Below the pieces are notes generated by a model. That model was not told the DNA's origin. It did not search any database and saw only the letters and a program-made list of their open reading frames with translations. The position numbers and the translations under genes were made by a program. DNA of 49,716 nucleotides, taken from the IMG/VR virus record IMGVR_UViG_3300025687_000066, positions 1 through 49,716 of that record; one strand, 5' to 3'. Each line of letters starts with the position of its first letter. Position 1 is the stretch's first letter. The DNA is from a virus. Positions 1-15,810 of this stretch are shown here, piece after piece.

Positions 1-46
1 GCCTAAAGTTGGAAACAAATAATGAATAAACTAAGAAAGGTAGCTA

Positions 47-1723
47 ATGGCTTTAACTAATCAGCTATACCATACAAGTATCAAAATTGGCGAAGATGCT
101 CAAACTCAGATTGATTTTGAGACAGCCGATGAGATTCACTTTGATGTTGATGGCACAGAAGCCCTCCGCCTCGACTCGTCGCAGAACGCTACGTTTGCTG
201 GCGACATACTGACATCTTCCGGTGATTTGAACATCACCCCCGCAAGCCGAGTCGTTATCGGTGGCTCTGGTCTGCGTGTTGCCTCTGGAACAGAAGGTGC
301 ACCGGGTATTGCGTGGACTGACGACCCCGATACTGGTTTCTGGCGTGACACCCCTAATGAGATACAAATCAGTACAGGTGGCACAGAAGCCCTCCGCATC
401 GACTCGTCGCAGCAAGTCACCATCAGACGCGAGTTGAATCTCGGAGTTGCTGGCATCTATAACGGCATCATTTCTTCCCCGGAGTCATTGTTCTTCAACA
501 TTGATGATGACAATGACTCCACATCACAGTCATTTACGTGGGCGCATAACGCTGGCGGAACTGGTGGCACAGCCTTGATGACCCTCACTGACGAGGGATT
601 GTTGGGCATTGGCGAAACCTCTCCGGGGGGCAAGCTGCACATCACAACAGGTAATGCTGGTTCCCTTGCGTTTGATGCAAACGCTGACGATCTCATCATC
701 GAGTCGAATGGAGCCGCAGGTCTCCACATATTCACCCCGAATACGTCAAACGGTCGCATTTTGTTCTCTGACCCTGATGATGCAGATGCAGCGGCTATTC
801 TGTTCGATCATGCCAATGACGGACTTGACTTCTATATCGCTGCCACAAAGAAACTCTCGCTTGACGGCAACAACGTAATAGTTCCTAACAATCACGGTCT
901 CGTCGTAGGTCACACGTCGCAGGTAACTACGAGTATGACCGCTGAGGCACAAGTTCTAGGAACTGCAACAGCAGACTCATCGCTAACCCTTGGCTTGTGG
1001 AACACGACTAATTCTCAACTTCCACGTATGCAGTTCTTGAAGTCCGGTAGCGGGACTATTGGCTCTAACACGATTGTTGCCGATGGTGAATCTCTTGGAA
1101 TGATTGAGTGGTATGCGGACGATGGAACCGACTACGCATCTAGGTCTGCGTACATTATTGGCGAGATAGACGGGGGGACAGGAACTAATGACGTTCCGGG
1201 TAGGCTCATATTTGGAACCACCGCTGACGGTGCGAACAACCCAACAGAAGCCCTCCGTATCGACTCGTCGCAGAACGCTACGTTTGCTGGCAACATAACG
1301 GTTAGCGAAGATGGCAAGATTGACTTTTCTAATACCGCACCGGGTACGAGCGGTGATGCAACCGGCGTGATCTTCTCGTTTACCGCTGGAACCACGTTAG
1401 CTGTAGGAGACGTGGTTTATATGGGAACGGGTGGCAAAGTGCTTCTCGCAGACGCAGACGCAGCTACTTCAATGCCAGCGTTAGGAATCTGCACCAGCGC
1501 AAGCACAGACACAAACCCTGTTGACGTAATGGTTCAGGGGGTTATGAAACTTACAGGTTGGTCGTTCACTATTGGTAACGACATATTCGTTAGCACGACT
1601 GCTGGTGACGTTACTGCTACCGCTCCGAGCGGAACTGGCGACACGGTGCAAAAGGTCGGCGTTGCTACGGCATCCGACGCTGCGTACTTCAACTTCAACA
1701 CGACGGAGGTAGTTCTTGCCTGA
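47..1723 (+). CDS. Tail fibre / virion repeat protein (cassette copy 1)
   Basis: 558 residues. The protein is low in complexity and carries three copies of a phrase like GTEALRIDSSQ (near residues 36, 112 and 400), typical of beta-rich phage fibre or decoration proteins. The last ~115 residues (from about 440) form a beta-type domain (AVGDVVYMGTGG..ALGI) that reappears at the C-terminus of the fibre gene at 2773-4308. The ATG follows AGAAAGG at good spacing. Its stop overlaps the TTG start of the glycine-rich gene by 8 bases, so the two are translationally coupled. Its GC-richer codon use differs from most neighbours, suggesting recent exchange. Receptor-binding structure is inferred from context; no enzymatic motif is seen. 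Confidence 0.7.
   Translation: MALTNQLYHTSIKIGEDAQTQIDFETADEIHFDVDGTEALRLDSSQNATFAGDILTSSGDLNITPASRVVIGGSGLRVASGTEGAPGIAWTDDPDTGFWRDTPNEIQISTGGTEALRIDSSQQVTIRRELNLGVAGIYNGIISSPESLFFNIDDDNDSTSQSFTWAHNAGGTGGTALMTLTDEGLLGIGETSPGGKLHITTGNAGSLAFDANADDLIIESNGAAGLHIFTPNTSNGRILFSDPDDADAAAILFDHANDGLDFYIAATKKLSLDGNNVIVPNNHGLVVGHTSQVTTSMTAEAQVLGTATADSSLTLGLWNTTNSQLPRMQFLKSGSGTIGSNTIVADGESLGMIEWYADDGTDYASRSAYIIGEIDGGTGTNDVPGRLIFGTTADGANNPTEALRIDSSQNATFAGNITVSEDGKIDFSNTAPGTSGDATGVIFSFTAGTTLAVGDVVYMGTGGKVLLADADAATSMPALGICTSASTDTNPVDVMVQGVMKLTGWSFTIGNDIFVSTTAGDVTATAPSGTGDTVQKVGVATASDAAYFNFNTTEVVLA
152..1295 (+). repeat. Three dispersed direct repeats inside fibre gene
   Basis: A near-identical stretch beginning ACAGAAGCCCTCCG occurs at about 152-206, 380-412 and 1244-1295. 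The first and third copies match over about 50 bases, including CAGAACGCTACGTTTGCTGG. The middle copy matches for about 33 bases. Low divergence at synonymous positions means recent internal duplication or gene conversion. Confidence 0.85.
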
Positions 1724-2672
1724 TATTTCCACAGTCAACGGTATTGAGATTGCCAGTATCGCCACGGTTAACGGCAAGACTGATGCTGAGATAGCCACGA
1801 TGGACGGCAACGAGTTTGTTAGTGCAAGTTTTACTGCTGCAACAGGAGGCACGATTACTACGTCCGGTGACTGGAAAATCCACACGTTTACGTCGTCGGG
1901 AACATTCCAAGTTACGGCAGTCGGCGACCCTGACGACACTCTTGAATATCTCGTAATCGCTGGCGGTGGTGGCGGTGGTCAACGCGATACCTCTATTTCT
2001 GCACAAGGCGGCGGTGGCGGCGGTGGCGGTGGCTATCGTTCTTCGGTCGTTGGCGAAAACTCAGGCGGCGGTTCCTCTGCGGAGTCGGTTATTACAGCAC
2101 AGGTCAAGTCATACACCGTGACGATTGGAGCGGGTGGCGCAGCCCACACTCAGGGCAGCAACTCGGTGTTCGACACTATTACCTCTACTGGCGGCGGTAA
2201 TGGTGGGGGTAACGGCGGGAACCCCACGACAGGCGGTTCTGGGGGTGGTGGTCAGCAAGGTGTTGCTGGCGCGGCAGGGACAGCTAATCAAGGCTATGCC
2301 GGTGGCACTGGTTACAATGCTGGCTGGCCCACCCGCCTCGGTGGTGGCGGTGGTGGCTCCGCTAGCGTTGGCGATAATGCTAGTTACCATTATGCGGGTC
2401 ACGGTGGTCACGGAGTCGATTCAGCTATTACTGGCTCTACGGTTGGGCGAGCGGGTGGTGGCGGCGGAAGCGAAGTAGCATCTGGCATTTACAACCATCC
2501 CGGCTCAGGGCGTGACGGTGGTGGCTCAGGCAGCGGCACTGGTAACGGTGGCAACGGTTCCGCTAATACCGGCGGTGGTGGTGGTGGTGGGTATTACAAA
2601 TTCTCACTACCTTCGTACAACGGCGGCACAGGTGGTTCCGGTGTTGTAATAATTAGGTACAAGTATCAGTAA
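1716..2672 (+). CDS. Glycine-rich tail adhesin (cassette copy 1)
   Basis: 318 residues. An N-terminal segment of ~75 residues with repeated VNG..I phrases is followed by a beta segment (EYLVIAGGGGGG). About 200 residues of glycine tracts interrupted by short inserts then end in GVVIIRYKYQ. This is the build of phage glycine-rich receptor-binding proteins (compare T-even gp38 adhesins), where short hypervariable loops between glycine runs contact the receptor. Start is TTG at 1716, chosen because GGAGGT lies 6 bases upstream and no better in-frame start exists. Paralogue of the gene at 4309-5274 with more GGC codons. Adhesin role is inferred. Confidence 0.75.
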   Translation: MPDISTVNGIEIASIATVNGKTDAEIATMDGNEFVSASFTAATGGTITTSGDWKIHTFTSSGTFQVTAVGDPDDTLEYLVIAGGGGGGQRDTSISAQGGGGGGGGGYRSSVVGENSGGGSSAESVITAQVKSYTVTIGAGGAAHTQGSNSVFDTITSTGGGNGGGNGGNPTTGGSGGGGQQGVAGAAGTANQGYAGGTGYNAGWPTRLGGGGGGSASVGDNASYHYAGHGGHGVDSAITGSTVGRAGGGGGSEVASGIYNHPGSGRDGGGSGSGTGNGGNGSANTGGGGGGGYYKFSLPSYNGGTGGSGVVIIRYKYQ

Positions 2673-2734
2673 TGGCACACTTCGCTGAACTAGACGACAA
2701 CAATAAAGAAGAAACGGTTCTTGAAGGAAAGTAA
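2672..2734 (+). pseudogene. 20-codon relic of the MAHFA-family gene
   Basis: Short reading frame MAHFAELDDNN followed directly by KEETVLEGK. Both ends match the ends of the 138-residue protein at 5283-5699 (MAHFAQIDENN at the start, KEETVLEGQLN at the end), while the ~118 residues between are missing. The deletion kept the reading frame; the join falls in ATA, which is present at both edges in the full copy. The ATG overlaps the stop of the adhesin gene (TAATG), so it may still be translated as a peptide. Confidence 0.85.
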
Positions 2735-2744
2735 TGGAAATCCG

Positions 2745-2752
2745 GGTATAAT
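2745..2752 (+). promoter_or_regulatory. TATAAT -10-like element before fibre gene
   Basis: GGTATAAT lies about 20 bases upstream of the fibre ATG at 2773. No consensus -35 hexamer stands 16-18 bases upstream. It is a looser member of the AGTATAATA family seen before other virion genes. The Shine-Dalgarno AAAGGAGA follows before the start codon. Confidence 0.5.
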
Positions 2753-2772
2753 GCATAAAAGGAGATTATTAT

Positions 2773-4308
2773 ATGGGTTATGTTGGAAGCGCTCCTGTTG
2801 TAGGCGATTATAGAAAATTAGATGATATTTCCAGTAGTTTTAATGGAAGTACTACTGATTTTACGCTTCAAGTAGGAAGTGCTAATGTAACTCCCTTAAG
2901 AGAAACCACTATGATTATATCTGTTGGTGGTCTTATACAGGAGCCAGTAACAGCATATACGGTATCCGGTAGTACTATATCTTTTACCTCTGCTCCAGCT
3001 ACCGGGGCAGATTTCTTTGGGGTTTTGTTAGGCGATACCATGAGTATAGGAACCCCTTCGGATGGTACTATAACAGCAGCTAAATTAGCTACGACAGTTA
3101 TTACAGGACTTACTGCTTCTACAACAATAGCAGATGCAGATTTAGTTCTTGTTGATGATGGTGCTAATGGTACGCTAAGGAAAATGACTAGGGCAGATTT
3201 CATGTCCTTTGGAATATCAAATACCAATGCGGTAAAGATCGACGCAGCGGACGTGGCTGACAATGAGTATGCCCGGTTCACCGCTAACGGATTAGAAAGC
3301 CGCACAGCTGCGGAAGTTGCAGCGGATATTGAGGGCAGTATTGATGCGGTAGGTACTTTGGCTGCGGGTGCTATAAGTTCTGGCTTTGGCAACATTGATA
3401 TTGGCTCAAGCACATTCGACACAACTGGTGCTGTTTCTACAGGCGCATTGACCACAACGGGGGCACTAGAACAATCTGGCGGTGCGGTTGCGTTCAATCA
3501 GGGGTCGGGCGATTACGACTTCAAGATTGAGTCCGATAATACAGACAACATCTTCCACGTTGACGGTGGCGTGAACGCCGGTAAAGGCTCGGTAACTCTC
3601 GGATACTCAGCGAACCCTGACGCAAGCAATCGGGCGTTCTTCAAGGTGTACCCGCCAGCAATAACCACGGCTACTGACACGAGTACGTCGTGGGTTGGTA
3701 TCCAACCTGATTATCTAATGACAATGAGCGGAACCGTACCTGTTGCTGCGAGCCTTGCTGTTGAAGAACCGAATATCAGCGGAACGCCGACACTGGCATC
3801 TACGCTCTACATCAAAGACGCTCCGACTGAAGGCAGCACAAACGCTGCGATTTACGTGGAAAGCGGGGACATTGTTACTAATGGCAATGTAACAATTAAC
3901 TCTACTCCAACAGATGAAACTGTCTCAGGAATTACGGCAACCTTTACCGCAGGAGAGGCGTTAGAGCGTGGCGAAGTGGTTTACTTCAAACAAGCTGATA
4001 GCAAGATGTGGAAGGCAGTTGCAACGGCATCGGCTACATCAAGGTGTGTCGCTATGGCAGCAGAAGATATAAGTGCTGATGCGTCAGGGCTTTTCTTACT
4101 TCAAGGTTTCTGCACAGACAATGGGACATTCCCTGCCTATACAGTCGGCGGGGCTATATACACGCCTGAAGCAGAAACAGCTTCACAAAACGTGCCAGAG
4201 CAGACTGCTCCTGATTCTGATGGGGACTTTGTTCAGGTATTAGGCTGGGCTGTGACTGCAAACACTCTTTACTTCAACCCATCCAACGACATAATCGAGC
4301 ATGCGTAA
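2773..4308 (+). CDS. Tail fibre protein (cassette copy 2)
   Basis: 511 residues. The N-terminal ~150 residues (MGYVGSAPVVGDY, then a FNGSTTDFTL phrase near 26-35) resemble the virion-anchoring domain of phage tail fibres. Alanine/glycine-rich, probably trimeric shaft sequence follows. The last ~120 residues (LERGEVVYFKQ to IIEHA) match the C-terminal domain of the fibre at 47-1723. Good Shine-Dalgarno (AAAGGAGA). Base composition changes sharply near 3230, from AT-rich to GC-richer, so the gene looks like a fusion of a native anchor with an acquired shaft and tip. Followed without gap by the adhesin gene. Confidence 0.75.
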   Translation: MGYVGSAPVVGDYRKLDDISSSFNGSTTDFTLQVGSANVTPLRETTMIISVGGLIQEPVTAYTVSGSTISFTSAPATGADFFGVLLGDTMSIGTPSDGTITAAKLATTVITGLTASTTIADADLVLVDDGANGTLRKMTRADFMSFGISNTNAVKIDAADVADNEYARFTANGLESRTAAEVAADIEGSIDAVGTLAAGAISSGFGNIDIGSSTFDTTGAVSTGALTTTGALEQSGGAVAFNQGSGDYDFKIESDNTDNIFHVDGGVNAGKGSVTLGYSANPDASNRAFFKVYPPAITTATDTSTSWVGIQPDYLMTMSGTVPVAASLAVEEPNISGTPTLASTLYIKDAPTEGSTNAAIYVESGDIVTNGNVTINSTPTDETVSGITATFTAGEALERGEVVYFKQADSKMWKAVATASATSRCVAMAAEDISADASGLFLLQGFCTDNGTFPAYTVGGAIYTPEAETASQNVPEQTAPDSDGDFVQVLGWAVTANTLYFNPSNDIIEHA

Positions 4309-5274
4309 ATGGCTAACCAAGTTGAAGCAGTAAACGGCATTGCTATTACCGATATTGAAAACATCAACGGTAAAACGGATGACAATATCGAAGCCTTGAA
4401 TGGCAAAGAGTTTCTTGGTATTTCTTACCTTACCGCTACGGGTGGCACGATCACGACTGATGGTGACTACAAGATTCACACGTTCAACTCTAGTGCAACG
4501 TTTACTGTAACCGCTTTAGGTGCAGGTCATGCAGAAGCCGATGTGGTTGAATACCTCGTAATAGGAGGTGGTGGTGGAGGTGGAAGTACGGATCAATTTC
4601 GTCAAGGTTCTGGAGGCGGTGGCGGAGCAGGTGCCTACAGAACTGCAACGGGATTTACTGTAGCTGCTCAGGGATACACCATTACCGTAGGCGGCGGTGG
4701 AGCCTACGGAGTCCCAACATCTGATCAAGGTAGTAATGGAAGTAACAGCGTATTCTCAACCATAACCAGTAATGGTGGTGGTGGTGGTGGGGCAGGTGGA
4801 TACGACACCGGATATGGTGGGCGAAGTAACGGGAACGCTTCCGGTGGTGGCGGTGCTGGTGCGTTTGGTAATGAAGGGGCAGGTACGGGTGGAGCCTACG
4901 GAAACAACGGTGGCAGTGGATACGCATCCACAACTGCCGCAGGTGGAGGTGGTGGAGCTGGAGCCACAGGTGGTAGTGGTACGGGTGCCTCAAACCAAGG
5001 TGGTTCAGGTGGAACTGGAGAAACCAACGACATCAACGGAACTAATACTGGACGTGCTGGAGGAGGCGGAGGCGGATCAGGTGGAACCGCTTCAGGTGGA
5101 AGTGCTAGCAACGGAGGAGGCTCCGGTGGTGCTGGGACAGGAGCGCATGGAAGTAATGGATCAACCAACTACGGTGGTGGAGGGGGTGGTTCTAGTCGGT
5201 ACTTCAATGGGACTGCGTGGCACGGCGGAAACGGTGGGTCTGGTTTAGTCATAGTTAGGTATAAGTATCAATAG
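4309..5274 (+). CDS. Glycine-rich tail adhesin (cassette copy 2)
   Basis: 321 residues with the same architecture as 1716-2672: VNGIAITDIENINGKTD start, EYLVIGGGGGGG, long glycine tracts with short variable inserts, and a GLVIVRYKYQ end. Codon choice for glycine (GGT/GGA) differs from copy 1 (GGC/GGT), so the copies did not arise by very recent simple duplication. The ATG directly follows the stop of the fibre gene, implying coupled expression and probably a shared fibre-adhesin complex. Receptor recognition is inferred from the glycine-rich architecture. Confidence 0.75.
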   Translation: MANQVEAVNGIAITDIENINGKTDDNIEALNGKEFLGISYLTATGGTITTDGDYKIHTFNSSATFTVTALGAGHAEADVVEYLVIGGGGGGGSTDQFRQGSGGGGGAGAYRTATGFTVAAQGYTITVGGGGAYGVPTSDQGSNGSNSVFSTITSNGGGGGGAGGYDTGYGGRSNGNASGGGGAGAFGNEGAGTGGAYGNNGGSGYASTTAAGGGGGAGATGGSGTGASNQGGSGGTGETNDINGTNTGRAGGGGGGSGGTASGGSASNGGGSGGAGTGAHGSNGSTNYGGGGGGSSRYFNGTAWHGGNGGSGLVIVRYKYQ

Positions 5275-5282
5275 GAGAAAAC

Positions 5283-5699
5283 ATGGCACACTTCGCACAA
5301 ATAGATGAAAACAATATCGTTACCCAAGTAATCGTGGTGGGTAATGAAGATTGCTTAGACTCGGACGGAAATGAATCAGAAGCTGTCGGCATTGCTTTTT
5401 GCCAGTCACTTTTTGGTTCTGATACTTACTGGATTCAGACAAGCTATAACAACAACATAAGATACCGATATGCTGGCGTAGGGTTTACTTATGACCAAGC
5501 GAATAATGTTTTTATTCCACCACAGCCTTATCCGTCATGGATTCTAAACACCGATACATGGGACTGGGACGCACCTGTCCCTATACCTGATGACGCAGGG
5601 TTTAACGAAGACACTAATACTTTGATTGCTTATTTTTGGAATGAAGAAACTATTTCTTGGGATAAAGAAGAAACGGTTCTTGAAGGACAGTTAAACTAA
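5283..5699 (+). CDS. MAHFA-family fibre-associated protein
   Basis: 138 residues, beginning MAHFAQIDENN and containing the aromatic-rich phrases GIAFCQSLFG, YAGVGFTYD and PPQPYPSWIL. From memory this family is common next to tail-fibre genes in aquatic phages, but its function is unknown to me. Ends KEETVLEGQLN. AGGAG lies 6 bases before the ATG. A deleted relic of a second copy sits at 2672-2734, which shows that this gene is a standard third member of the fibre-adhesin cassette. A structural or assembly role is inferred from position only. Confidence 0.65.
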   Translation: MAHFAQIDENNIVTQVIVVGNEDCLDSDGNESEAVGIAFCQSLFGSDTYWIQTSYNNNIRYRYAGVGFTYDQANNVFIPPQPYPSWILNTDTWDWDAPVPIPDDAGFNEDTNTLIAYFWNEETISWDKEETVLEGQLN

Positions 5700-5707
5700 C
5701 TTTATCA

Positions 5708-5724
5708 AGTATAATAGTATAATG
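5708..5724 (+). promoter_or_regulatory. Double TATAAT element
   Basis: AGTATAATAGTATAATG gives two overlapping copies of the recurring element in the gap before the gene at 5763. No -35 hexamer is visible at the expected distance. About 39 bases then lead to the ATG, including the Shine-Dalgarno GAAGGAGA. Confidence 0.6.
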
Positions 5725-5762
5725 GTAAGAACAAAGCTTTAGTTCTTGAAGGAGAAGTAGGT

Positions 5763-5975
5763 ATGGCAGAAATAGATATTAACTCAGATTTAAAAGCAGT
5801 AACAGAAAAAGTAGAAGCACTGGTAGCTAACCTTCAGCAGTTAGATGCACAAAGACAGGAAATAGTCCAACAAATTCAAAACCTAAATGGTGTAGCTATG
5901 TATTTGAGAGGAAAAACAGATGATTCTCCTACTGAAGCTACCACAGACTCTGAAGTTGATAACAAGGAGACTTAA
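5763..5975 (+). CDS. Small coiled-coil protein of the tail region
   Basis: 70 residues, acidic, with a predicted coiled coil over residues ~8-45 (LKAVTEKVEALVANLQQLDA) and a polar tail rich in T, D and E. Preceded by a double TATAAT element and GAAGGAGA. Its stop overlaps the ATG of the connector gene (TAATG). I do not recognise the family; a virion-assembly or fibre-attachment role is possible from its position. Confidence 0.6.
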   Translation: MAEIDINSDLKAVTEKVEALVANLQQLDAQRQEIVQQIQNLNGVAMYLRGKTDDSPTEATTDSEVDNKET

Positions 5976-7117
5976 TGGCAACTACCGCTAGTCAATCATT
6001 TTCTACCGTATTTGACTACGACGGGTCAAGTTACAACGATCGAACTAAGGAGGCTCGCACTCGTGCGGGTACCTCCTTTACTGTTTTAGGTACTACTTCT
6101 AGTTACCTGTATTTAGGTTACACTGAAAAGTTTGACATGGCTCTGTTTGATTTGGATGGGCTAGGCAGCTTAGGAGATTTAACGTGGGAATACTCAGCGG
6201 GGAGTAGTTCGTGGACTGAGTTCTCACCAACTTACGATAGAATTGACCCTGATGGGAATCCTTATAAGTTTACCAAAGATGGAGCAGAAATATTCCCAGA
6301 TAATTTGTTAGCATCATGGGCTACTGACACAGTGAACTCGGTAACTAGTACTTATTGGGTACGAGTTAGCTCTGCTTCTTCCGTTACAACCGCTCCAACG
6401 GTTAAATCTATAGAAATGCGTCCTAGAGCCGCTTACTGTACTACCGCAGATGTGTTTGACTTCATGCAGTTGGGTAATGTTCTTAGCACATACAACGCCA
6501 GCACTGGCGTTACAACTGCTGGAACGGACTTCACAGCGTCTACAGTACCCTCAAAGAACACTGTAGAGAAATATATTCAAGCGGCACAGGCTGAAATTGA
6601 CTACCGAACTCGAAAATCTTGGCGACCAAACATAGTTTTAAATGAAGAACATAATTTTAACCTGTTTGGGTTCAAAACAGACCGTTTTGGGGCTAGAAAG
6701 ATTCTTTCTTTGTCTGTATGGGATGGAGAATCGTATGAAGAAAAGAATCAAGGTCGAAATCAAGACTATTTCTTTGTACCTGACACGGGAATGCTACATT
6801 TTTCACGGTTTTTCTACCTTCCCGCTCGTTTTGCAAGCTTAAATTCACCTACAGCCCGGTTTGGGGGAGGAGAATTTATTACTCCGGTCCGAATTGACTA
6901 CATTTACGGCTTTGATGTGAACAGAGACTTCCGAGAAGGTGCATTAGTTACTGAATTAACGAAGAAATTAGTCACTAGTGAGATTCTCAGGAACTCAGAT
7001 TTTGGTGAGGTAGCTGTTGGCGGTGCTGATAGAGTGGCGGTGGCGCAAAAAATTGATCAATACCGTCGAGAAATTGACGATGGTTTAGAGATGCTTCGAG
7101 CATTTGAGACGTTTTAA
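5975..7117 (+). CDS. Head-tail connector with N-terminal beta domain
   Basis: 380 residues. Residues ~153-380 look like an HK97 gp6 / SPP1 gp15-type head-tail adaptor: YCTTADVFDFMQLG, then VEKYIQAAQAEIDYRTRKSW, a beta segment, and a C-terminal helix. Residues 1-150 form an added beta-rich domain (LTWEYSAGSSSWTEFS..TYWVRVSS) resembling small carbohydrate-binding or immunoglobulin-like folds. The connector part would sit between portal and tail; the extra domain may face outward. Start overlaps the preceding stop and the next gene overlaps its own stop in the same way. Connector assignment is by pattern, moderately sure. Confidence 0.6.
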   Translation: MATTASQSFSTVFDYDGSSYNDRTKEARTRAGTSFTVLGTTSSYLYLGYTEKFDMALFDLDGLGSLGDLTWEYSAGSSSWTEFSPTYDRIDPDGNPYKFTKDGAEIFPDNLLASWATDTVNSVTSTYWVRVSSASSVTTAPTVKSIEMRPRAAYCTTADVFDFMQLGNVLSTYNASTGVTTAGTDFTASTVPSKNTVEKYIQAAQAEIDYRTRKSWRPNIVLNEEHNFNLFGFKTDRFGARKILSLSVWDGESYEEKNQGRNQDYFFVPDTGMLHFSRFFYLPARFASLNSPTARFGGGEFITPVRIDYIYGFDVNRDFREGALVTELTKKLVTSEILRNSDFGEVAVGGADRVAVAQKIDQYRREIDDGLEMLRAFETF

Positions 7118-7566
7118 TGGCAAATGACCCGATACCTGTTACAGATTTTCTTGATGAGCTAAGAGTTCAGTGGGATAGCTCAAATGTAGCTGAACCTAGA
7201 ATTGTTGAGATAAATAACAGCGGTACAGCTACACAAAGTTTGCGTATTGACTTAAATCAGGCAGATTATGTCTTAGGTCGAGCGGGTAATCCTGCATTTC
7301 TGGAAGAACCTATAGGGAACTGGAAGTACGGGAATAGAACATACAACGTAGAACTGGAAGTTTATACCCGACAAAGCAGATTAAATTTATACAACTTATT
7401 AAGAGAAGTAAGAAAAATTTGTCACGCTAGGATACATTCAATGACAAATTTTCAGAGAGTTCAGTATTTATCGTTTACAGAGCAAACGCAAGAACAAGCT
7501 AATATTTGGTTAGGGGTAGCTCAAATTCGATTGGTTAATAACGCTGTATTACTAGAAACAACATAA
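7117..7566 (+). CDS. Putative tail terminator protein
   Basis: 149 residues. Placed between the connector and the tail tube, where siphophages encode the tail terminator or completion protein that caps the tail tube and joins it to the head. Mixed alpha/beta content (YNVELEVYTRQSR, LLREVRKICHARIH, IWLGVAQIRLVN) fits the small gpU/gp10-like fold. No catalytic motif. Start ATG overlaps the upstream stop. Assignment rests on size and position. Confidence 0.5.
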   Translation: MANDPIPVTDFLDELRVQWDSSNVAEPRIVEINNSGTATQSLRIDLNQADYVLGRAGNPAFLEEPIGNWKYGNRTYNVELEVYTRQSRLNLYNLLREVRKICHARIHSMTNFQRVQYLSFTEQTQEQANIWLGVAQIRLVNNAVLLETT

Positions 7567-7570
7567 TTTT

Positions 7571-7580
7571 AGTATAATAT
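7571..7580 (+). promoter_or_regulatory. AGTATAATAT element before tail tube gene
   Basis: AGTATAATAT lies about 35 bases before the tail tube ATG, in the short gap after the terminator gene. No -35 box is visible. Same core as the elements at 5708, 30685, 35563, 36243 and 41860. Confidence 0.6.
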
Positions 7581-7612
7581 AACAACTAGCTAGTTTATTT
7601 AGGGAGATATAA

Positions 7613-9445
7613 ATGGCAACATATAGGTCTGATCGTTCACAACTTACTTTCGCTGCGGAAGCCGCTCAGGGGGGATATCCAGAGCCTATATATGGCATAA
7701 ACGGAACAGGAACTGCTTCACTGAGTTCAGCCGCCGATGCAGGGTCTAAAAAAATCACAGTTTCTTCTACTTCGGGTTTAATAGTAGGGGATTTTATCAT
7801 TATTGGAGATGATGCCCCATCAGCAGCTAATGCAGCTACACAAGAAATTCGTAGAATCGAGTTTATAAGTGGTTCAGACCTCTACCTAGATCGACCCACT
7901 GCTTTTTACCACGCAGCCGGTGCAGATGTTGAAGAAAGAACATCCTTACCAGTTGACTACTCTGGGGGTGCAGCAGAAACAGTCGGAGACGGTGTTTTTC
8001 CCGCAGTTACATGGCTTCCCGGCGTATACGACACGGTTACTCTTCCTGAACCAGTTAACACAATCGAGCCTACCTACTTCCTAGGTACTGACTCTAACCG
8101 AAACTTTACCCATGCATACCGTGGGTCTCAGTCATATGACGGGTCTTTGACAGGGATAACACTTTTAAATGGCTGGCCTTTACGATTCCCTATCGGTAAG
8201 GTCTCAACTGTTTCTAGTGCAACTCCCAGCGGTTTAGATACAACACTGTCTTCGGCTTCTAAAAAAGGAGATACTGTAATTGATGTTGCAAGCACTCAGT
8301 CCGGGGACCCTCTGGCGGACATATTAGAAGGACAGTTAGTATCTATTGATGATACATCGGGGAACACTGAAATTAGGCAAGTTATTGCTGTTGATTCTAG
8401 TGACGGAGGAAATGGCCTTTTATATCTAAACTACCCTCTAACTTTGGCACACGCTGCCTCAGCTACGGTTGACCAAATAGCTCATGTCGGCGGAACACCG
8501 GGAACGGCGGGTACTACATATACCCACACTATTGCAGAAACAACTGATTTAGACACTATTAGCTGGTCTGCTTTGTTTAAGGATTCAGCAGACACGGATG
8601 GTAACGCCTTGATTAGGCGATACTACGGTGGAATGGTTTCATCAGCCACAATTTCTGCTGAAGAAGGCGGTTTGGTTCAAATGTCTTGGGACTCAGTTCC
8701 GTTTATGGGAATGGTTCATAACATTAAAAATGCGTGGGATTCGACTGCCGATACCTCAATTACAGGGACTTCTGCTGATACAGGTATTCCCGGATATCAT
8801 TTGACTGGTGATCCCAACACTAACGCTTCGTTGGATTACGTAGGTGTTCCTTTGGTAGATCAAGATGAGTATGATTATGCTACTGCTGCTGACTCCGCTG
8901 AGTACGCAGGATTTCCTACAACGGAACCTTATTACTTCTCTCAGGGTGTAATAACTATGCATGGTGCAACTATCGCAAGGGTTCGGGATTTCTCATTATC
9001 CATTGATAACGCTGTTGAGCCACGATATTACATTGAGCAGCGGGGAGATACCCGACGGCGGGGACCTTCGGAATTACACGAACAGCGACGTACTTATAGT
9101 ATGACCGCTACGCTTGTTCCAGACTCCATAGACATAGATGGAACATATACTGCTGATTCAGCCGATGCTATATTTTCAGAATATCTGTTACAGGGAGATT
9201 ATGGAAATCTTGGGGCAAACCAAGGAATTAAAGGGTTTAAAGTAGAGCTTCAGTTTAGCCGAAGTTTAAATGATTACATTAAGATATTAGTAGATGATTC
9301 TACAGCTTCACAGGGTTCTCCTAATGCTGTGTTAACAGCCGCTCCAGTTCAGATTGATGGAAATAACCCATTGCAGTTATCAGCAGAAATTTTAATTAAG
9401 AGTCTTTCGATTGAAATTAAGGATAATGAACCGTATTATCCATAA
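7613..9445 (+). CDS. Major tail (tube) protein with inserted beta domains
   Basis: 610 residues. Own upstream TATAAT element and AGGGAGAT ribosome site suit a highly expressed tail tube protein, placed just before the tail chaperone frameshift genes, as in many siphophages. Two copies of a small beta module are inserted: residues ~34-105 (SKKITVSSTSGLIVGDFIII) and ~210-290 (KKGDTVIDVAS..LEGQLVSIDD). A related module is in the major capsid protein. Unusually long for a tube subunit because of these inserts. Ends with a beta-rich tube-type segment (LKIDGNNPLQLSAEI-like). Assignment is from order, not from a diagnostic motif. Confidence 0.6.
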   Translation: MATYRSDRSQLTFAAEAAQGGYPEPIYGINGTGTASLSSAADAGSKKITVSSTSGLIVGDFIIIGDDAPSAANAATQEIRRIEFISGSDLYLDRPTAFYHAAGADVEERTSLPVDYSGGAAETVGDGVFPAVTWLPGVYDTVTLPEPVNTIEPTYFLGTDSNRNFTHAYRGSQSYDGSLTGITLLNGWPLRFPIGKVSTVSSATPSGLDTTLSSASKKGDTVIDVASTQSGDPLADILEGQLVSIDDTSGNTEIRQVIAVDSSDGGNGLLYLNYPLTLAHAASATVDQIAHVGGTPGTAGTTYTHTIAETTDLDTISWSALFKDSADTDGNALIRRYYGGMVSSATISAEEGGLVQMSWDSVPFMGMVHNIKNAWDSTADTSITGTSADTGIPGYHLTGDPNTNASLDYVGVPLVDQDEYDYATAADSAEYAGFPTTEPYYFSQGVITMHGATIARVRDFSLSIDNAVEPRYYIEQRGDTRRRGPSELHEQRRTYSMTATLVPDSIDIDGTYTADSADAIFSEYLLQGDYGNLGANQGIKGFKVELQFSRSLNDYIKILVDDSTASQGSPNAVLTAAPVQIDGNNPLQLSAEILIKSLSIEIKDNEPYYP

Positions 9446-12072: not shown

Positions 12073-15000
12073 ATGCCAAAGAGAAGTAAGATTATCCTTG
12101 AGGTCTGGAATGGGTCTGCTTGGGTGCCTGTTTACAGTAGCTCGTCTGGGAATAAAAATGCGCTTATTAATCTCCAGATAAAAGAAAAGTTAGGGCATCC
12201 TGTAATGGCTAGGTTTTCTCTTATGAACCGTCCTGTTACAACTTCAGCCGTAAGAGGCTATGTAGAGCAAACTTATGGTGCGTACCTAGAAGAATTTGAC
12301 CGTATACGATTAGTTGAGTCTTACACTAAAGCTATAATCTTTTATGGGCGGGTGTATAGAGAAGAAGTAAAGCAAGATATGTCTTATGGGTCTCTAATAA
12401 ACATCACTGCCTTTGATGCTTTACAGGAGTTACGTGAAAATTTCCTGCAAGGACAAGCGGCTAACTTAACGTCTACATCCACTGTTTCTGACGCTATCAC
12501 TAAAATAATTAATAATTTTTCATACAATACTCGTGTAGGTAGCAGTCCGGGCACCTTAGTAAGCAGTAATATTTCCGTAGCAGATACCCAAAAGTTCAAT
12601 ACTTCTGCATCTTCTACAGCGGAGAGTCCCGACTTTTCTTCAGGTAATTCGTCAGCTTTAGCGGCAATTTACAAATTAGCTGCTAAAGACCCGCACAGCT
12701 CAAGTACTTCAAATACAGTACCCGATACGGATTTCGGTTACAACTACTTTGTGGACTCTGGCTTTACCAGTGCTGATGCGGCAACCACTCACGCTAATGC
12801 GAAACCCACATTTAACTACTTCAAGCGAGAGACTATGCCAGCGATATCTCCCGCTAATCACTACAATATTACATATAAAGGTGCTGCTTCCGACGGAGAT
12901 TCATCCAATAGCTACACTACAACTACTAATACATTTTCGGAATTCGATTTCTCTAAGCAATATACTGACATTATTACTCATGTTTTACTTACGTATTCAA
13001 AAGACGATGGTACACAAGATACAGTCACTGTAATTAAATTAAATGTGAGTGCTATTTCTGATGGTTCGGGGAACGATCTAGATTTTGGCACGTTACTCGA
13101 AGGAGAGAGTATCGAGAAATCTCCTGATTTATGGCGTAGAGCAACAAGTGGTGGTTATACCTCTGTTGGGAAATTAATATATATTGATAACGTAACGGCT
13201 AGTGGCAGTGGAGTTGCACTAGTAACTATAAACGATGATATAGCTGTTCATGAAATATTGGGAACTAGTCTAAGCGGAACATATGATACTTCTTTGTATA
13301 TATCAGCTTCTACCCCCACATCTACAGCAATAGATCAATTCTATGTTGATTCTTCTGGGTCTACGACAATAGAACACACAAGGATTAAAGACCTTAATTA
13401 TGACGCTGTAGAAGCGCCCGATGATATAAGGCGAGCACTTGCTGCCCACTTTACGAAAAAGACTGAATCCACCAAACCTATTAGGGGATATATACAAATT
13501 CCTGAATACCCAATGGCTAGAATAACAGTTGACCCCAGTAGTATTAATACAAGCACTAATGTACTTACACTACCAATTAACGTGTTGGACCGAGCGGTAC
13601 GTAAAGGGATGCTTGTTAGACAAGTAACATCAGCAGGTGTAGAAACAGGTAACTATGGTTATATATCAAACGTTACGACATCTCCCGATACAATTACTGT
13701 TCAATTATATGATTCTGGTAATAGTACAACCTCATGGAGTTCTGATGATAAGTGTCTCATCTTTGTCCCAATTCGCCCCGGATTTAGGGTGAATGTCACT
13801 AACACGTTTGCTAATATTTCAGGAACTGGGGTTGTACTAGACCTTGATTATTCTGAAGGTGTCGGTGTACAAACGACTGCTATGAATATAGTTATCAACA
13901 ATACAGCAGCAATTTATTCAGATACCCCAAACCCAACACAAACGGGTACAACTTACTCACCCAATAACATTCCTAGTTCAACAAAACCGATCAGAACTAC
14001 CTGTGTGTTTTCTAACACTGGGACAAACCAAGTTAACTGGGCTGCGGGGAATTTATATGTAGGAGCTGACGAATATCCTATTGATGCAGGTAACCAAGGT
14101 AGTTTAAGTACTTCATCTTGGAGCATCGTTTATTGGTTATCTAGTGATGACGGTGGCGATGATACTATTTTCTCAGTAGCATCCTCTCTAGCAAATCTAC
14201 CACAGAAAGCAGTTAAAGTTGCTCGAATTAAAGCTGGGGATAGCCAAGCTCAGTGGGAGTTCTTTGCCGGAACTACACAGAATCCACAGTACGATCTTGG
14301 TGATTCAACGATATTTACTGGTAATCTAGGGGTAGACTTATTCGCTGATGGAGCAAAACCATTCACTACGGATGTTACTTGGTCTGGAGGAACAGGGACA
14401 AGTTATAATCAGGTTACAAACAGCAGTGGTACGTTAAATTATGCTGACGGAACAACCTTATCAGTTACAGGCCCAACGACTCATGATAATGGAGGACTCG
14501 GTTTAGCAGATAACTCTAATCAGTATTTTTATGTTGATACCACCTCAGGTACTGTTTCAGCTACTACAACTGGTTCAGCAGCTATCGGTTCAAATAAAAT
14601 TCTTCTAGCTATAGCAGGAATTAGTAATAGTTCAGATCAGGCTACACCAACTATACTACCCATAAATACAAAAACTCCTATAATTTCAGCTACCGCTTTA
14701 ACAGCGAACGCAGTTACAGCAGATAAAATCCAAGCTAACGCAGTTACAGCAGGTAAAATCCAAGCTAACGCAGTTACAGCAGGTAAGTTAGAAGCAACCC
14801 TAACTGTATCTAATACAATTAGAACAGCCTCAAGTGGTGCTAGAGTAGAAATAACTAGTAGTGGGTTAGAAATAATAAATAGCCCATATAGTCGGGGCAC
14901 TAACTTAAAGTTTACAGACACAAGTGGTACTAACTATGGGCATTTACAAGCATCATATGCTTATAGTAAATCTACATTAGGTGTATATGCTCACAATGGG

Positions 15001-15810
15001 GCTAGTCCTCCCACCCTTTACCAAGCAGCAAATTTTGGTGTAGGTATCGGTTACTCAGCCGACGCTGGTTTTGTTACTCAGGGAAATATAGAAATAATCG
15101 ATTCTAGTGGTACCCCAACCCTATACTTTACTGGTACGGGCAGTCTGCAAGGGCGTATAGAGATGGTGGGAGGTGTCCTATATACATACGATGGTGTCGG
15201 AACTAATAGAGCAACCATAGGAAATAATATTCGTTCGGCTAGTGGGTCAGCTTCTTCACCTACCTTCTCGTTTTTGCCAGATACTTATACTGGGATGTAC
15301 TCAGGTGGCACAAACATTTTAGCGTTTTCTACTGCTGGTACTGCTAGATGGTCAATAGGTACAGGCGGTGATCTAGTACCCGCAACGGATGGTTCGGGGG
15401 GTGCGGGGTATGACATAGGCTCGTCTAGTTATGAAGTTGATAAATTTTATGGTTATACAATATTCTTTTCTAACTCAGCATCCACAACAGGTACAGATTT
15501 AATTGTAACAGCATCAGGGCAGATAGCTAAAAAATCTAGTTCAATACAATATAAAGAAAATGTAAAAAACCTAGTGTTTGATTCTTCAAAACTTGATATT
15601 TTAAGACCTGTAAGTTATGATTATAAACTAAACAATGCTCCAGATATAGGTTTGGTTGCCGAAGAAGTCGATGAAGTTTTTCCAGAACTAGTTAATTACG
15701 ATAAAGAAGGTAAACCAGAATCAGTAAAATATCATAGTCTATCAGTTATGTTGTTACATGAAGTTACAAAATTACGTAAAGAAGTTAAAGAACTAAAGGA
15801 GAACAACTAA
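12073..15810 (+). CDS. Large tail-tip/fibre protein with S74 chaperone end
   Basis: 1245 residues, the largest protein here. The N-terminal ~130 residues (KIILEVWNGSAWVPVY, RIRLVESYTKAIIFYGRVYRE) look like a tail-hub domain. Long beta-rich fibre regions follow. Near 878-907 three decapeptide units ANAVTA(D/G)KIQ form a short repeat. The last ~90 residues are a peptidase S74 intramolecular chaperone: SSIQYKENVKNL near 1156, IGLVAEEVDEVFPEL, KYHSLSVMLLHEV, then a coiled-coil end. In this family the domain trimerises the fibre and then cuts itself off at a serine; the likely serine is around residue 1156-1157. Probably the host-contact fibre anchored at the tail tip. Confidence 0.8.
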   Translation: MPKRSKIILEVWNGSAWVPVYSSSSGNKNALINLQIKEKLGHPVMARFSLMNRPVTTSAVRGYVEQTYGAYLEEFDRIRLVESYTKAIIFYGRVYREEVKQDMSYGSLINITAFDALQELRENFLQGQAANLTSTSTVSDAITKIINNFSYNTRVGSSPGTLVSSNISVADTQKFNTSASSTAESPDFSSGNSSALAAIYKLAAKDPHSSSTSNTVPDTDFGYNYFVDSGFTSADAATTHANAKPTFNYFKRETMPAISPANHYNITYKGAASDGDSSNSYTTTTNTFSEFDFSKQYTDIITHVLLTYSKDDGTQDTVTVIKLNVSAISDGSGNDLDFGTLLEGESIEKSPDLWRRATSGGYTSVGKLIYIDNVTASGSGVALVTINDDIAVHEILGTSLSGTYDTSLYISASTPTSTAIDQFYVDSSGSTTIEHTRIKDLNYDAVEAPDDIRRALAAHFTKKTESTKPIRGYIQIPEYPMARITVDPSSINTSTNVLTLPINVLDRAVRKGMLVRQVTSAGVETGNYGYISNVTTSPDTITVQLYDSGNSTTSWSSDDKCLIFVPIRPGFRVNVTNTFANISGTGVVLDLDYSEGVGVQTTAMNIVINNTAAIYSDTPNPTQTGTTYSPNNIPSSTKPIRTTCVFSNTGTNQVNWAAGNLYVGADEYPIDAGNQGSLSTSSWSIVYWLSSDDGGDDTIFSVASSLANLPQKAVKVARIKAGDSQAQWEFFAGTTQNPQYDLGDSTIFTGNLGVDLFADGAKPFTTDVTWSGGTGTSYNQVTNSSGTLNYADGTTLSVTGPTTHDNGGLGLADNSNQYFYVDTTSGTVSATTTGSAAIGSNKILLAIAGISNSSDQATPTILPINTKTPIISATALTANAVTADKIQANAVTAGKIQANAVTAGKLEATLTVSNTIRTASSGARVEITSSGLEIINSPYSRGTNLKFTDTSGTNYGHLQASYAYSKSTLGVYAHNGASPPTLYQAANFGVGIGYSADAGFVTQGNIEIIDSSGTPTLYFTGTGSLQGRIEMVGGVLYTYDGVGTNRATIGNNIRSASGSASSPTFSFLPDTYTGMYSGGTNILAFSTAGTARWSIGTGGDLVPATDGSGGAGYDIGSSSYEVDKFYGYTIFFSNSASTTGTDLIVTASGQIAKKSSSIQYKENVKNLVFDSSKLDILRPVSYDYKLNNAPDIGLVAEEVDEVFPELVNYDKEGKPESVKYHSLSVMLLHEVTKLRKEVKELKENN
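14704..14793 (+). repeat. Three tandem 30-base repeats in tail-tip gene
   Basis: Units begin at 14704, 14734 and 14764, each GC(G/T)AACGCAGTTACAGCAG followed by (A/G)TAA and nine more bases. They encode decapeptide steps ANAVTADKIQ / ANAVTAGKIQ / ANAVTAGKLE. The high DNA identity makes this a site where shaft length could change by slippage or recombination. Confidence 0.9.

Follow-up and report, generated by a model that had tools for sequence, protein, structure and literature searches.

The window analyzed here, the whole of the IMG/VR virus record IMGVR_UViG_3300025687_000066 (49,716 bases), opens with two successive sets of a tail fiber gene, a glycine-rich adhesin gene and a gene of the type termed MAHFA, the first MAHFA gene being reduced to a remnant. 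This raises the question of how a phage comes to carry two such cassettes and what they provide. An earlier note had read them as a tandem duplication with a deletion in the third gene of the first copy, giving two receptor specificities or a means of swapping adhesins. On the basis of the anatomy of the region, homology searches, a comparison of the same site in other phages and rules of gene order, it is our view that the region is probably an exchangeable array of fiber cassettes that provides two receptor-binding tips, both adhesins being served by a single MAHFA protein that is probably a chaperone.

The window phage is tailed and siphovirus-like (tail tube PF18906, SU10-type major capsid, large terminase, portal) and also encodes DnaB, a DNA polymerase and a ribonucleotide reductase. 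A DNA search of INPHARED with positions 1–9000 gave no match. Both cassettes sit at the left end of the window and are followed by the backbone genes g6 (from 5763) and g7 (from 5975), and the open reading frames confirm that the three genes occur twice in the same order (47–2734 and 2773–5699; Table 1). The window starts 46 nt before F1, and genes standing further left in relatives are absent from it; the contig is therefore taken to be incomplete at this end, and further cassettes may have been lost with the cut. F1 carries an IKIGED..IDFE motif at its N-terminus and a C-terminal docking domain (FC1, about 1355–1720) of the "NFNTTEV-LA" type. The N-terminal anchor of F2 (residues 1–121) is of the pelagiphage/cyanophage type, and its docking domain (FC2, 3913–4305) ends in IIEHA. 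The idea that F1 lacks an N-terminal anchor was dropped, as the fibers of the related locus L168 begin likewise just before IKIGED. Elsewhere in the window, an S74 fiber (12073–15810) represents a third possible receptor-binding protein. Three contigs with the DnaB/PolA region in common with the window (L010, L011, L012) have a MAHFA gene at the position of this fiber, preceded in L012 by a glycine-rich adhesin.

Table 1. Features of the fiber cassette array at the left end of the window and of its immediate surroundings.
Feature	Position	Strand	Evidence
F1, tail fiber, cassette 1	47..1723	+	ORF; phrog_18345 tail fiber, E 6e-30
Recently shared block, FC1 plus first ~11 adhesin codons	1294..1750	+	Comparison with L084
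A1, glycine-rich adhesin, 318 aa, TTG start, overlaps F1	1716..2672	+	PF21722, E 4e-15; phrog_2295; adhesin N-terminal alignment
M1, MAHFA remnant, 20 codons	2672..2734	+	Sequence; repeats; shuffle null test
30-nt MAHFA tail	2703..2732	+	29/30 identical to 5662–5691
TATAAT box, promoter-like, 26 nt before F2	2747..2752	+	
F2, tail fiber, cassette 2	2773..4308	+	phrog_18673, E 7e-36; Pelagibacter phage matches; FC tree
A2, glycine-rich adhesin, 321 aa	4309..5274	+	PF21722; AF2 model; Foldseek
M2, intact MAHFA protein, 138 aa, phrog_7759; proposed adhesin chaperone	5283..5699	+	
Promoter-like CTAACT-16-TATAAT, 3' edge of the array	5696..5723	+	
g6 and g7, first backbone genes past the array	5763..7117	+	Used to locate 37 same-site loci

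The M1 remnant (MAHFAELDDNNKEETVLEGK, 20 aa) was found to have the composition described earlier, namely an 11-codon head (MAHFAELDDNN) and a nine-codon tail, joined at an ATA (2703–2705) that is present on both edges as a 3-nt microhomology. The head (2672–2705) is identical to positions 5283–5316 at 29 of 34 nt. The tail includes an exact 26-nt repeat (2703–2728 and 5662–5687), and the best 30-mer among 300 dinucleotide shuffles reached 21/30. Head and tail do not differ significantly in their identity to M2 (85% vs 97%, p 0.20). The KEETVLEG tail was absent from all other MAHFA genes examined, save that of this phage's near-identical contig, and so the tail of M1 most likely derives from the window phage's own lineage. 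Rather than a functional feature, the in-frame deletion is more probably a mark left by redundancy or recombination. At 5742–5753, 66 nt past the MAHFA tail copy, GTTCTTGAAGGA occurs a third time in exact form, inside a near-palindrome before g6.

The two cassettes are otherwise far apart. The fiber C-termini are related, as had been claimed, being homologous by profile though only 28% identical in amino acids, and the adhesin ends do match (57% identity over the N-terminal ~85 aa, 62% over the C-terminal 39 aa), while the bodies of fibers and adhesins could not be aligned between the copies by BLASTP. In a tree of the docking domains (90 rows), F1 groups with L084, L085, L232, L086 and the second copy of L168 (support 100/94) and F2 with L176, L177 and others; a sister grouping of F1 and F2 was rejected (p-AU 0.001, lnL difference 207). 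Outside the module edges and the near-identical 30-nt tail, the copies are ancient homologs of different lineages, and "duplication" is thus the wrong word for the fiber and adhesin genes.

Acquisition by recombination, which the earlier note had thought probable from codon choice, is borne out by several lines of evidence. The proportion of C at fourfold sites is 0.25 in F1 and 0.32 in A1 vs 0.04–0.20 in the other genes measured, and by this measure the base composition of cassette 1 is foreign. The unrelated contig L084 has in common with the window a sharp-edged block, from 1294 to about 1750, with 84–98% identity in most 50-nt windows and chance levels on both sides, which points to the FC1 domain having been imported recently along with the first ~11 adhesin codons. 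The docking tag at the N-terminus of A1 is MPDISTVNGIEI and that of A2 is MANQVEAVNGIAI; beyond these first ~11 codons the A1 tag follows the F2 type (NGKTD..I..NG.EF). A scan for a close donor of A1 gave relatives at 38–54% only, besides one short 67% stretch. Together with the separate clades of the fiber domains and the relatives that have either cassette alone, these comparisons support cassette exchange between phages. Swapping of adhesins between the cassettes of one phage found no backing: no reverse transcriptase, resolvase or tyrosine recombinase (PF00078, PF00239, PF00589) and no notable flanking inverted repeats were detected in the record, which may be incomplete.

A profile search with g7 identified 37 loci, the window's own near-identical contigs included, and a scan of GTDB genomes with g7 gave no match. 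L232 and L177 share g6, g7, g8, the tube gene and g10 with the window at 35–59% amino-acid identity. In each, one cassette is visible before g6: that of L232 is of the F1 type and includes an intact MAHFA gene, and that of L177 is of the F2 type and has adhesins that are not glycine-rich. Both contigs are cut at the left, and more cassettes could lie beyond. Two cassettes are found in three other relatives. In L168 (=L253), an EHA-type (F2-type) set is followed by an NTTEV-LA-type (F1-type) set, with fibers 52% and accessory genes 45% identical and both accessory genes intact. An in-frame shortening (147 vs 206 aa) affects the upstream accessory gene at this site in L263, and a premature stop that in L247, where the fibers are 46% and the accessory genes 94% identical in amino acids. 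Relatives of both kinds, which the earlier note had proposed looking for, therefore exist. Contig ends fall within 10 kb upstream of g7 in 28 of the 37 loci and within 10 kb downstream in three, the pattern expected of a variable site. It was also observed that in L177 (2853–4629) one fiber is followed by three tandem paralogous adhesin-like proteins (178–225 aa, about 40% identical), the two of these that were scanned belonging to phrog_14820.

The position of MAHFA genes follows a clear rule. The gene just 5' of MAHFA exceeds 20% glycine for 69 of 85 distinct MAHFA genes, vs 252 of 1343 ORFs of at least 200 aa (19%; p 1e-32), which places MAHFA, in the manner of Tfa or DUF4376 proteins, as a small gene directly downstream of a receptor-binding gene. 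Rows of glycine-rich genes (G) closed by one MAHFA gene (M) were frequent (raw counts: GGM 21, GGGM 39, GGGGM 6, GGGGGM 1). After clustering of MAHFA at 80% identity, 29 of 119 close a row of two to four glycine-rich genes and two show G-M-G-M; since these genes served as queries in retrieving the loci, such frequencies are not those of nature, but the order of genes inside a row does not stem from the search. The order in the window, G-remnant-G-M, fits between G-M-G-M and G-G-M and looks like an intermediate. The simplest account of these orders would be that one MAHFA protein can serve several adhesins, and that internal MAHFA copies are lost for this reason.

The predicted structure of MAHFA (pLDDT 92) gave nothing significant against the PDB with Foldseek, Mu Tfa (5yvq_B) appearing at rank 13 with E 4.9. 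Against BFVD it gave unnamed homologs, with "tail assembly chaperone" and "tail fiber assembly protein" only below threshold. Pfam yielded neither DUF4376 nor any other match, and a sequence profile found none in the PDB. MAHFA being without a significant match to a known chaperone, its role is proposed from gene order and not from family membership; on that basis it is most likely a folding or assembly chaperone of glycine-rich adhesins. If this is true, MAHFA (found in marine and freshwater phages) would be the shared chaperone of such adhesins, a prediction that can be tested. The tryptophan-rich C-terminal motif of MAHFA (SW....W.PP.PYP.D...Y.WDE...W) is also met with near fiber genes, on its own, in double form or as part of a fusion with other small proteins (L063:2894-3484, L182:4883-5104, L039:1433-1852, L083:6998-7543).

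Both adhesins pass the curated cut-off of PF21722 Gly_rich_2 (A1 56.9 and A2 56.0 bits vs 24.3). The AF2 model of A2 has a mean pLDDT of 74, with the first 40 residues unreliable, and shows a TNF-like plus glycine-rich fold; its top Foldseek matches were the Pam3 fiber (7ypx_A, E 1e-5, probability 1.00) and the Bxb1 tail-tip brush. Searches with A2 by tblastn in phage records and by sequence profile in the PDB found no match. Two receptor-binding tips in the window phage are plausible, since A1 and A2 are intact and A2 is modeled to fold like known receptor-binding domains. A comparison with the glycine-rich proteins encoded upstream of MAHFA in L030, L021, L014, L041, L023, L022 and L066 shows two forms, in which the strand TGGTITT.GDYKIHTFTSSGTFTV lies near the N-terminus (the A1/A2 type) or the same strand lies at the very C-terminus (PTVTTSGGYRIYTFTSSGSITF). 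This suggests a circular permutation between the forms.

A pairing was also seen between fiber ends and adhesin starts. Where a fiber ends in EHA, the next adhesin starts with MAN.IEK or a close variant in 32/32 cases, vs 0/51 for other fibers, the tag classes having been set up with the data in view. When the last residues are left out of the tree, the end type changes at least nine times, and in 5/5 supported independent pairs end and tag change together. From this pattern we infer a docking function of fiber ends and adhesin tags; tight physical linkage alone, without binding, could also produce it. We put forward, tentatively and with some doubt, that the last residues of the fiber and the first ~10 of the adhesin form a matching docking code of several types (EHA with MAN.IEK, NTTEV-LA with MPDIS., VEVA with MADY/IE.), that differing types are kept together so that each adhesin caps its own fiber, and that an incoming adhesin brings along the code end of the fiber. 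If so, short end tags would decide which adhesin caps which fiber, which is open to experiment.

Boxes resembling the one ahead of F2 (AGTATAATA) occur before the second fiber in L247, L263 and L168 and before several genes of the window, and L232 and L177 have a site (TTGACT-16-TATAAT) of the same place and form as that at the 3' edge of the array. GTATAAT recurs in the window at 2747, 5710, 5718, 7573, 30687, 30697, 35565, 36245, 41862 and 43724, mostly just 5' of genes. These boxes may be promoters of this phage group, but as a scan for consensus promoters with -35 boxes, like that for terminators, was not above chance, they are taken only as a lead.

Other explanations of the region have to be weighed against a recombining array. 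A recent duplication, within the genome, of a single cassette of three genes, whose copies then diverged and underwent an internal deletion, would give the same gene order twice and the near-identical MAHFA tail seen in no other MAHFA gene, and near-identical accessory genes do flank strongly diverged fibers in L247. Given the different clades of the docking domains, the unalignable adhesin bodies and the differing composition, it accounts at most for the 30-nt tail, with all else replaced later; it is refuted for the fiber and adhesin genes and improbable for the array as a whole. The array could instead be an assembly chimera in which two one-cassette strains were joined via the exact 26-nt repeat. 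No independent contig spans the junction, the DNA pattern of 2600–2800 being in no other viral contig searched; the near-identical contigs L002 and L003 end at 3451 and 5702, and contigs of relatives often break at the cassette site. A 26-nt repeat is, however, too short for most assembly k-mers, and the junction inside the MAHFA gene, with only 3 nt of homology, cannot arise through it. Tandem cassettes are also present in L168, L263 and L247 at this very site. We consider a chimera very improbable.

The two remaining explanations concern what became of cassette 1. It may be decaying, with A1 no longer able to fold and functional fibers made from cassette 2 only, as the loss of its MAHFA gene, the TTG start of A1 and the overlap of A1 with F1 would allow. 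Yet F1 and A1 are long intact reading frames, A1 keeps its conserved tag and glycine-rich motifs, and it is common for several glycine-rich genes to be arrayed with a single MAHFA gene; decay is on balance unlikely. The notion that M1 has been retained as a functional element, such as a translated leader or a promoter-proximal regulatory element before F2, draws on the recurrence of its tail GTTCTTGAAGGA at 5742 before g6 and on the TATAAT box that comes after M1. It must be set against the fact that M1 stands at the exact place and in the frame of a MAHFA gene, with both MAHFA ends, and that promoter boxes elsewhere are without this tail, and it is the least probable of these explanations.

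Under the favored model of an exchangeable array, each cassette would supply a fiber whose N-terminus binds the virion, an adhesin whose short N-terminal tag lets it cap the C-terminal docking domain of that fiber, and an accessory protein, with the promoter-like box ahead of the second fiber. Recombination would have brought a foreign cassette into the window phage, which for this reason has two docking types, each once. Two MAHFA genes would then have stood beside two glycine-rich adhesins, and the upstream one, being redundant, would have collapsed to the 20-codon scar, either by internal deletion or as the import junction itself; M1 probably shrank because intact M2 can serve both cassettes, M2 acting most likely as a folding or assembly chaperone for A1 and A2. 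Docking, chaperone activity and the two receptor specificities are here the inferred parts. One genome would then illustrate a possible route to a second receptor-binding tip, in which a foreign cassette settles beside the one already present and the accessory gene made redundant decays. This bears on host change in marine phages and on the annotation of receptor-binding genes in metagenomes. A literature search on multi-fiber exchange in marine phages found nothing with the terms used.

Parts of this arrangement are known from other systems. The brush domain of the Bxb1 tail tip (PDB 9d93) has a glycine-rich brush fold as in A2 (probability 1.00), but is part of a siphovirus tail tip and not a fiber-capping protein with its own tag. 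The host-recognition module of the Alteromonas phages V22 and A5 (PMC7289586, PMC10579305), a fiber with a downstream chaperone, has likewise passed as one unit between distant marine phages; its chaperone is a DUF4376 protein, to which MAHFA has no match, and no glycine-rich adhesin has been reported for it. The receptor-binding end of Pam3 gp24 is TNF-like plus glycine-rich, and gp24 needs the adjacent chaperone gp25 for its folding (PMC9608196). Pam3 gp24/gp25 (PDB 7ypx, 7yfw) therefore combine the receptor-binding fold of A2 with a small accessory gene directly downstream; gp24, however, is fiber and adhesin in one protein, whereas the adhesin of the window is separate and a proposed fiber cap, and gp25 has no detectable relation to MAHFA. 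A separate glycine-rich adhesin encoded directly after the fiber that it caps is described for gp37–gp38 of the T-even phages S16 and PP01 (PMC12892980 and references in PMC13243795). A2 matched no gp38 among PDB sequences, but its placement is gp38-like, the FC end of the fiber adjoining the adhesin start in nearly all loci. The T-even pair and the window cassettes are alike in their exchangeable specificity; the window cassettes differ in having another docking tag, a third, accessory gene and two cassettes in tandem.
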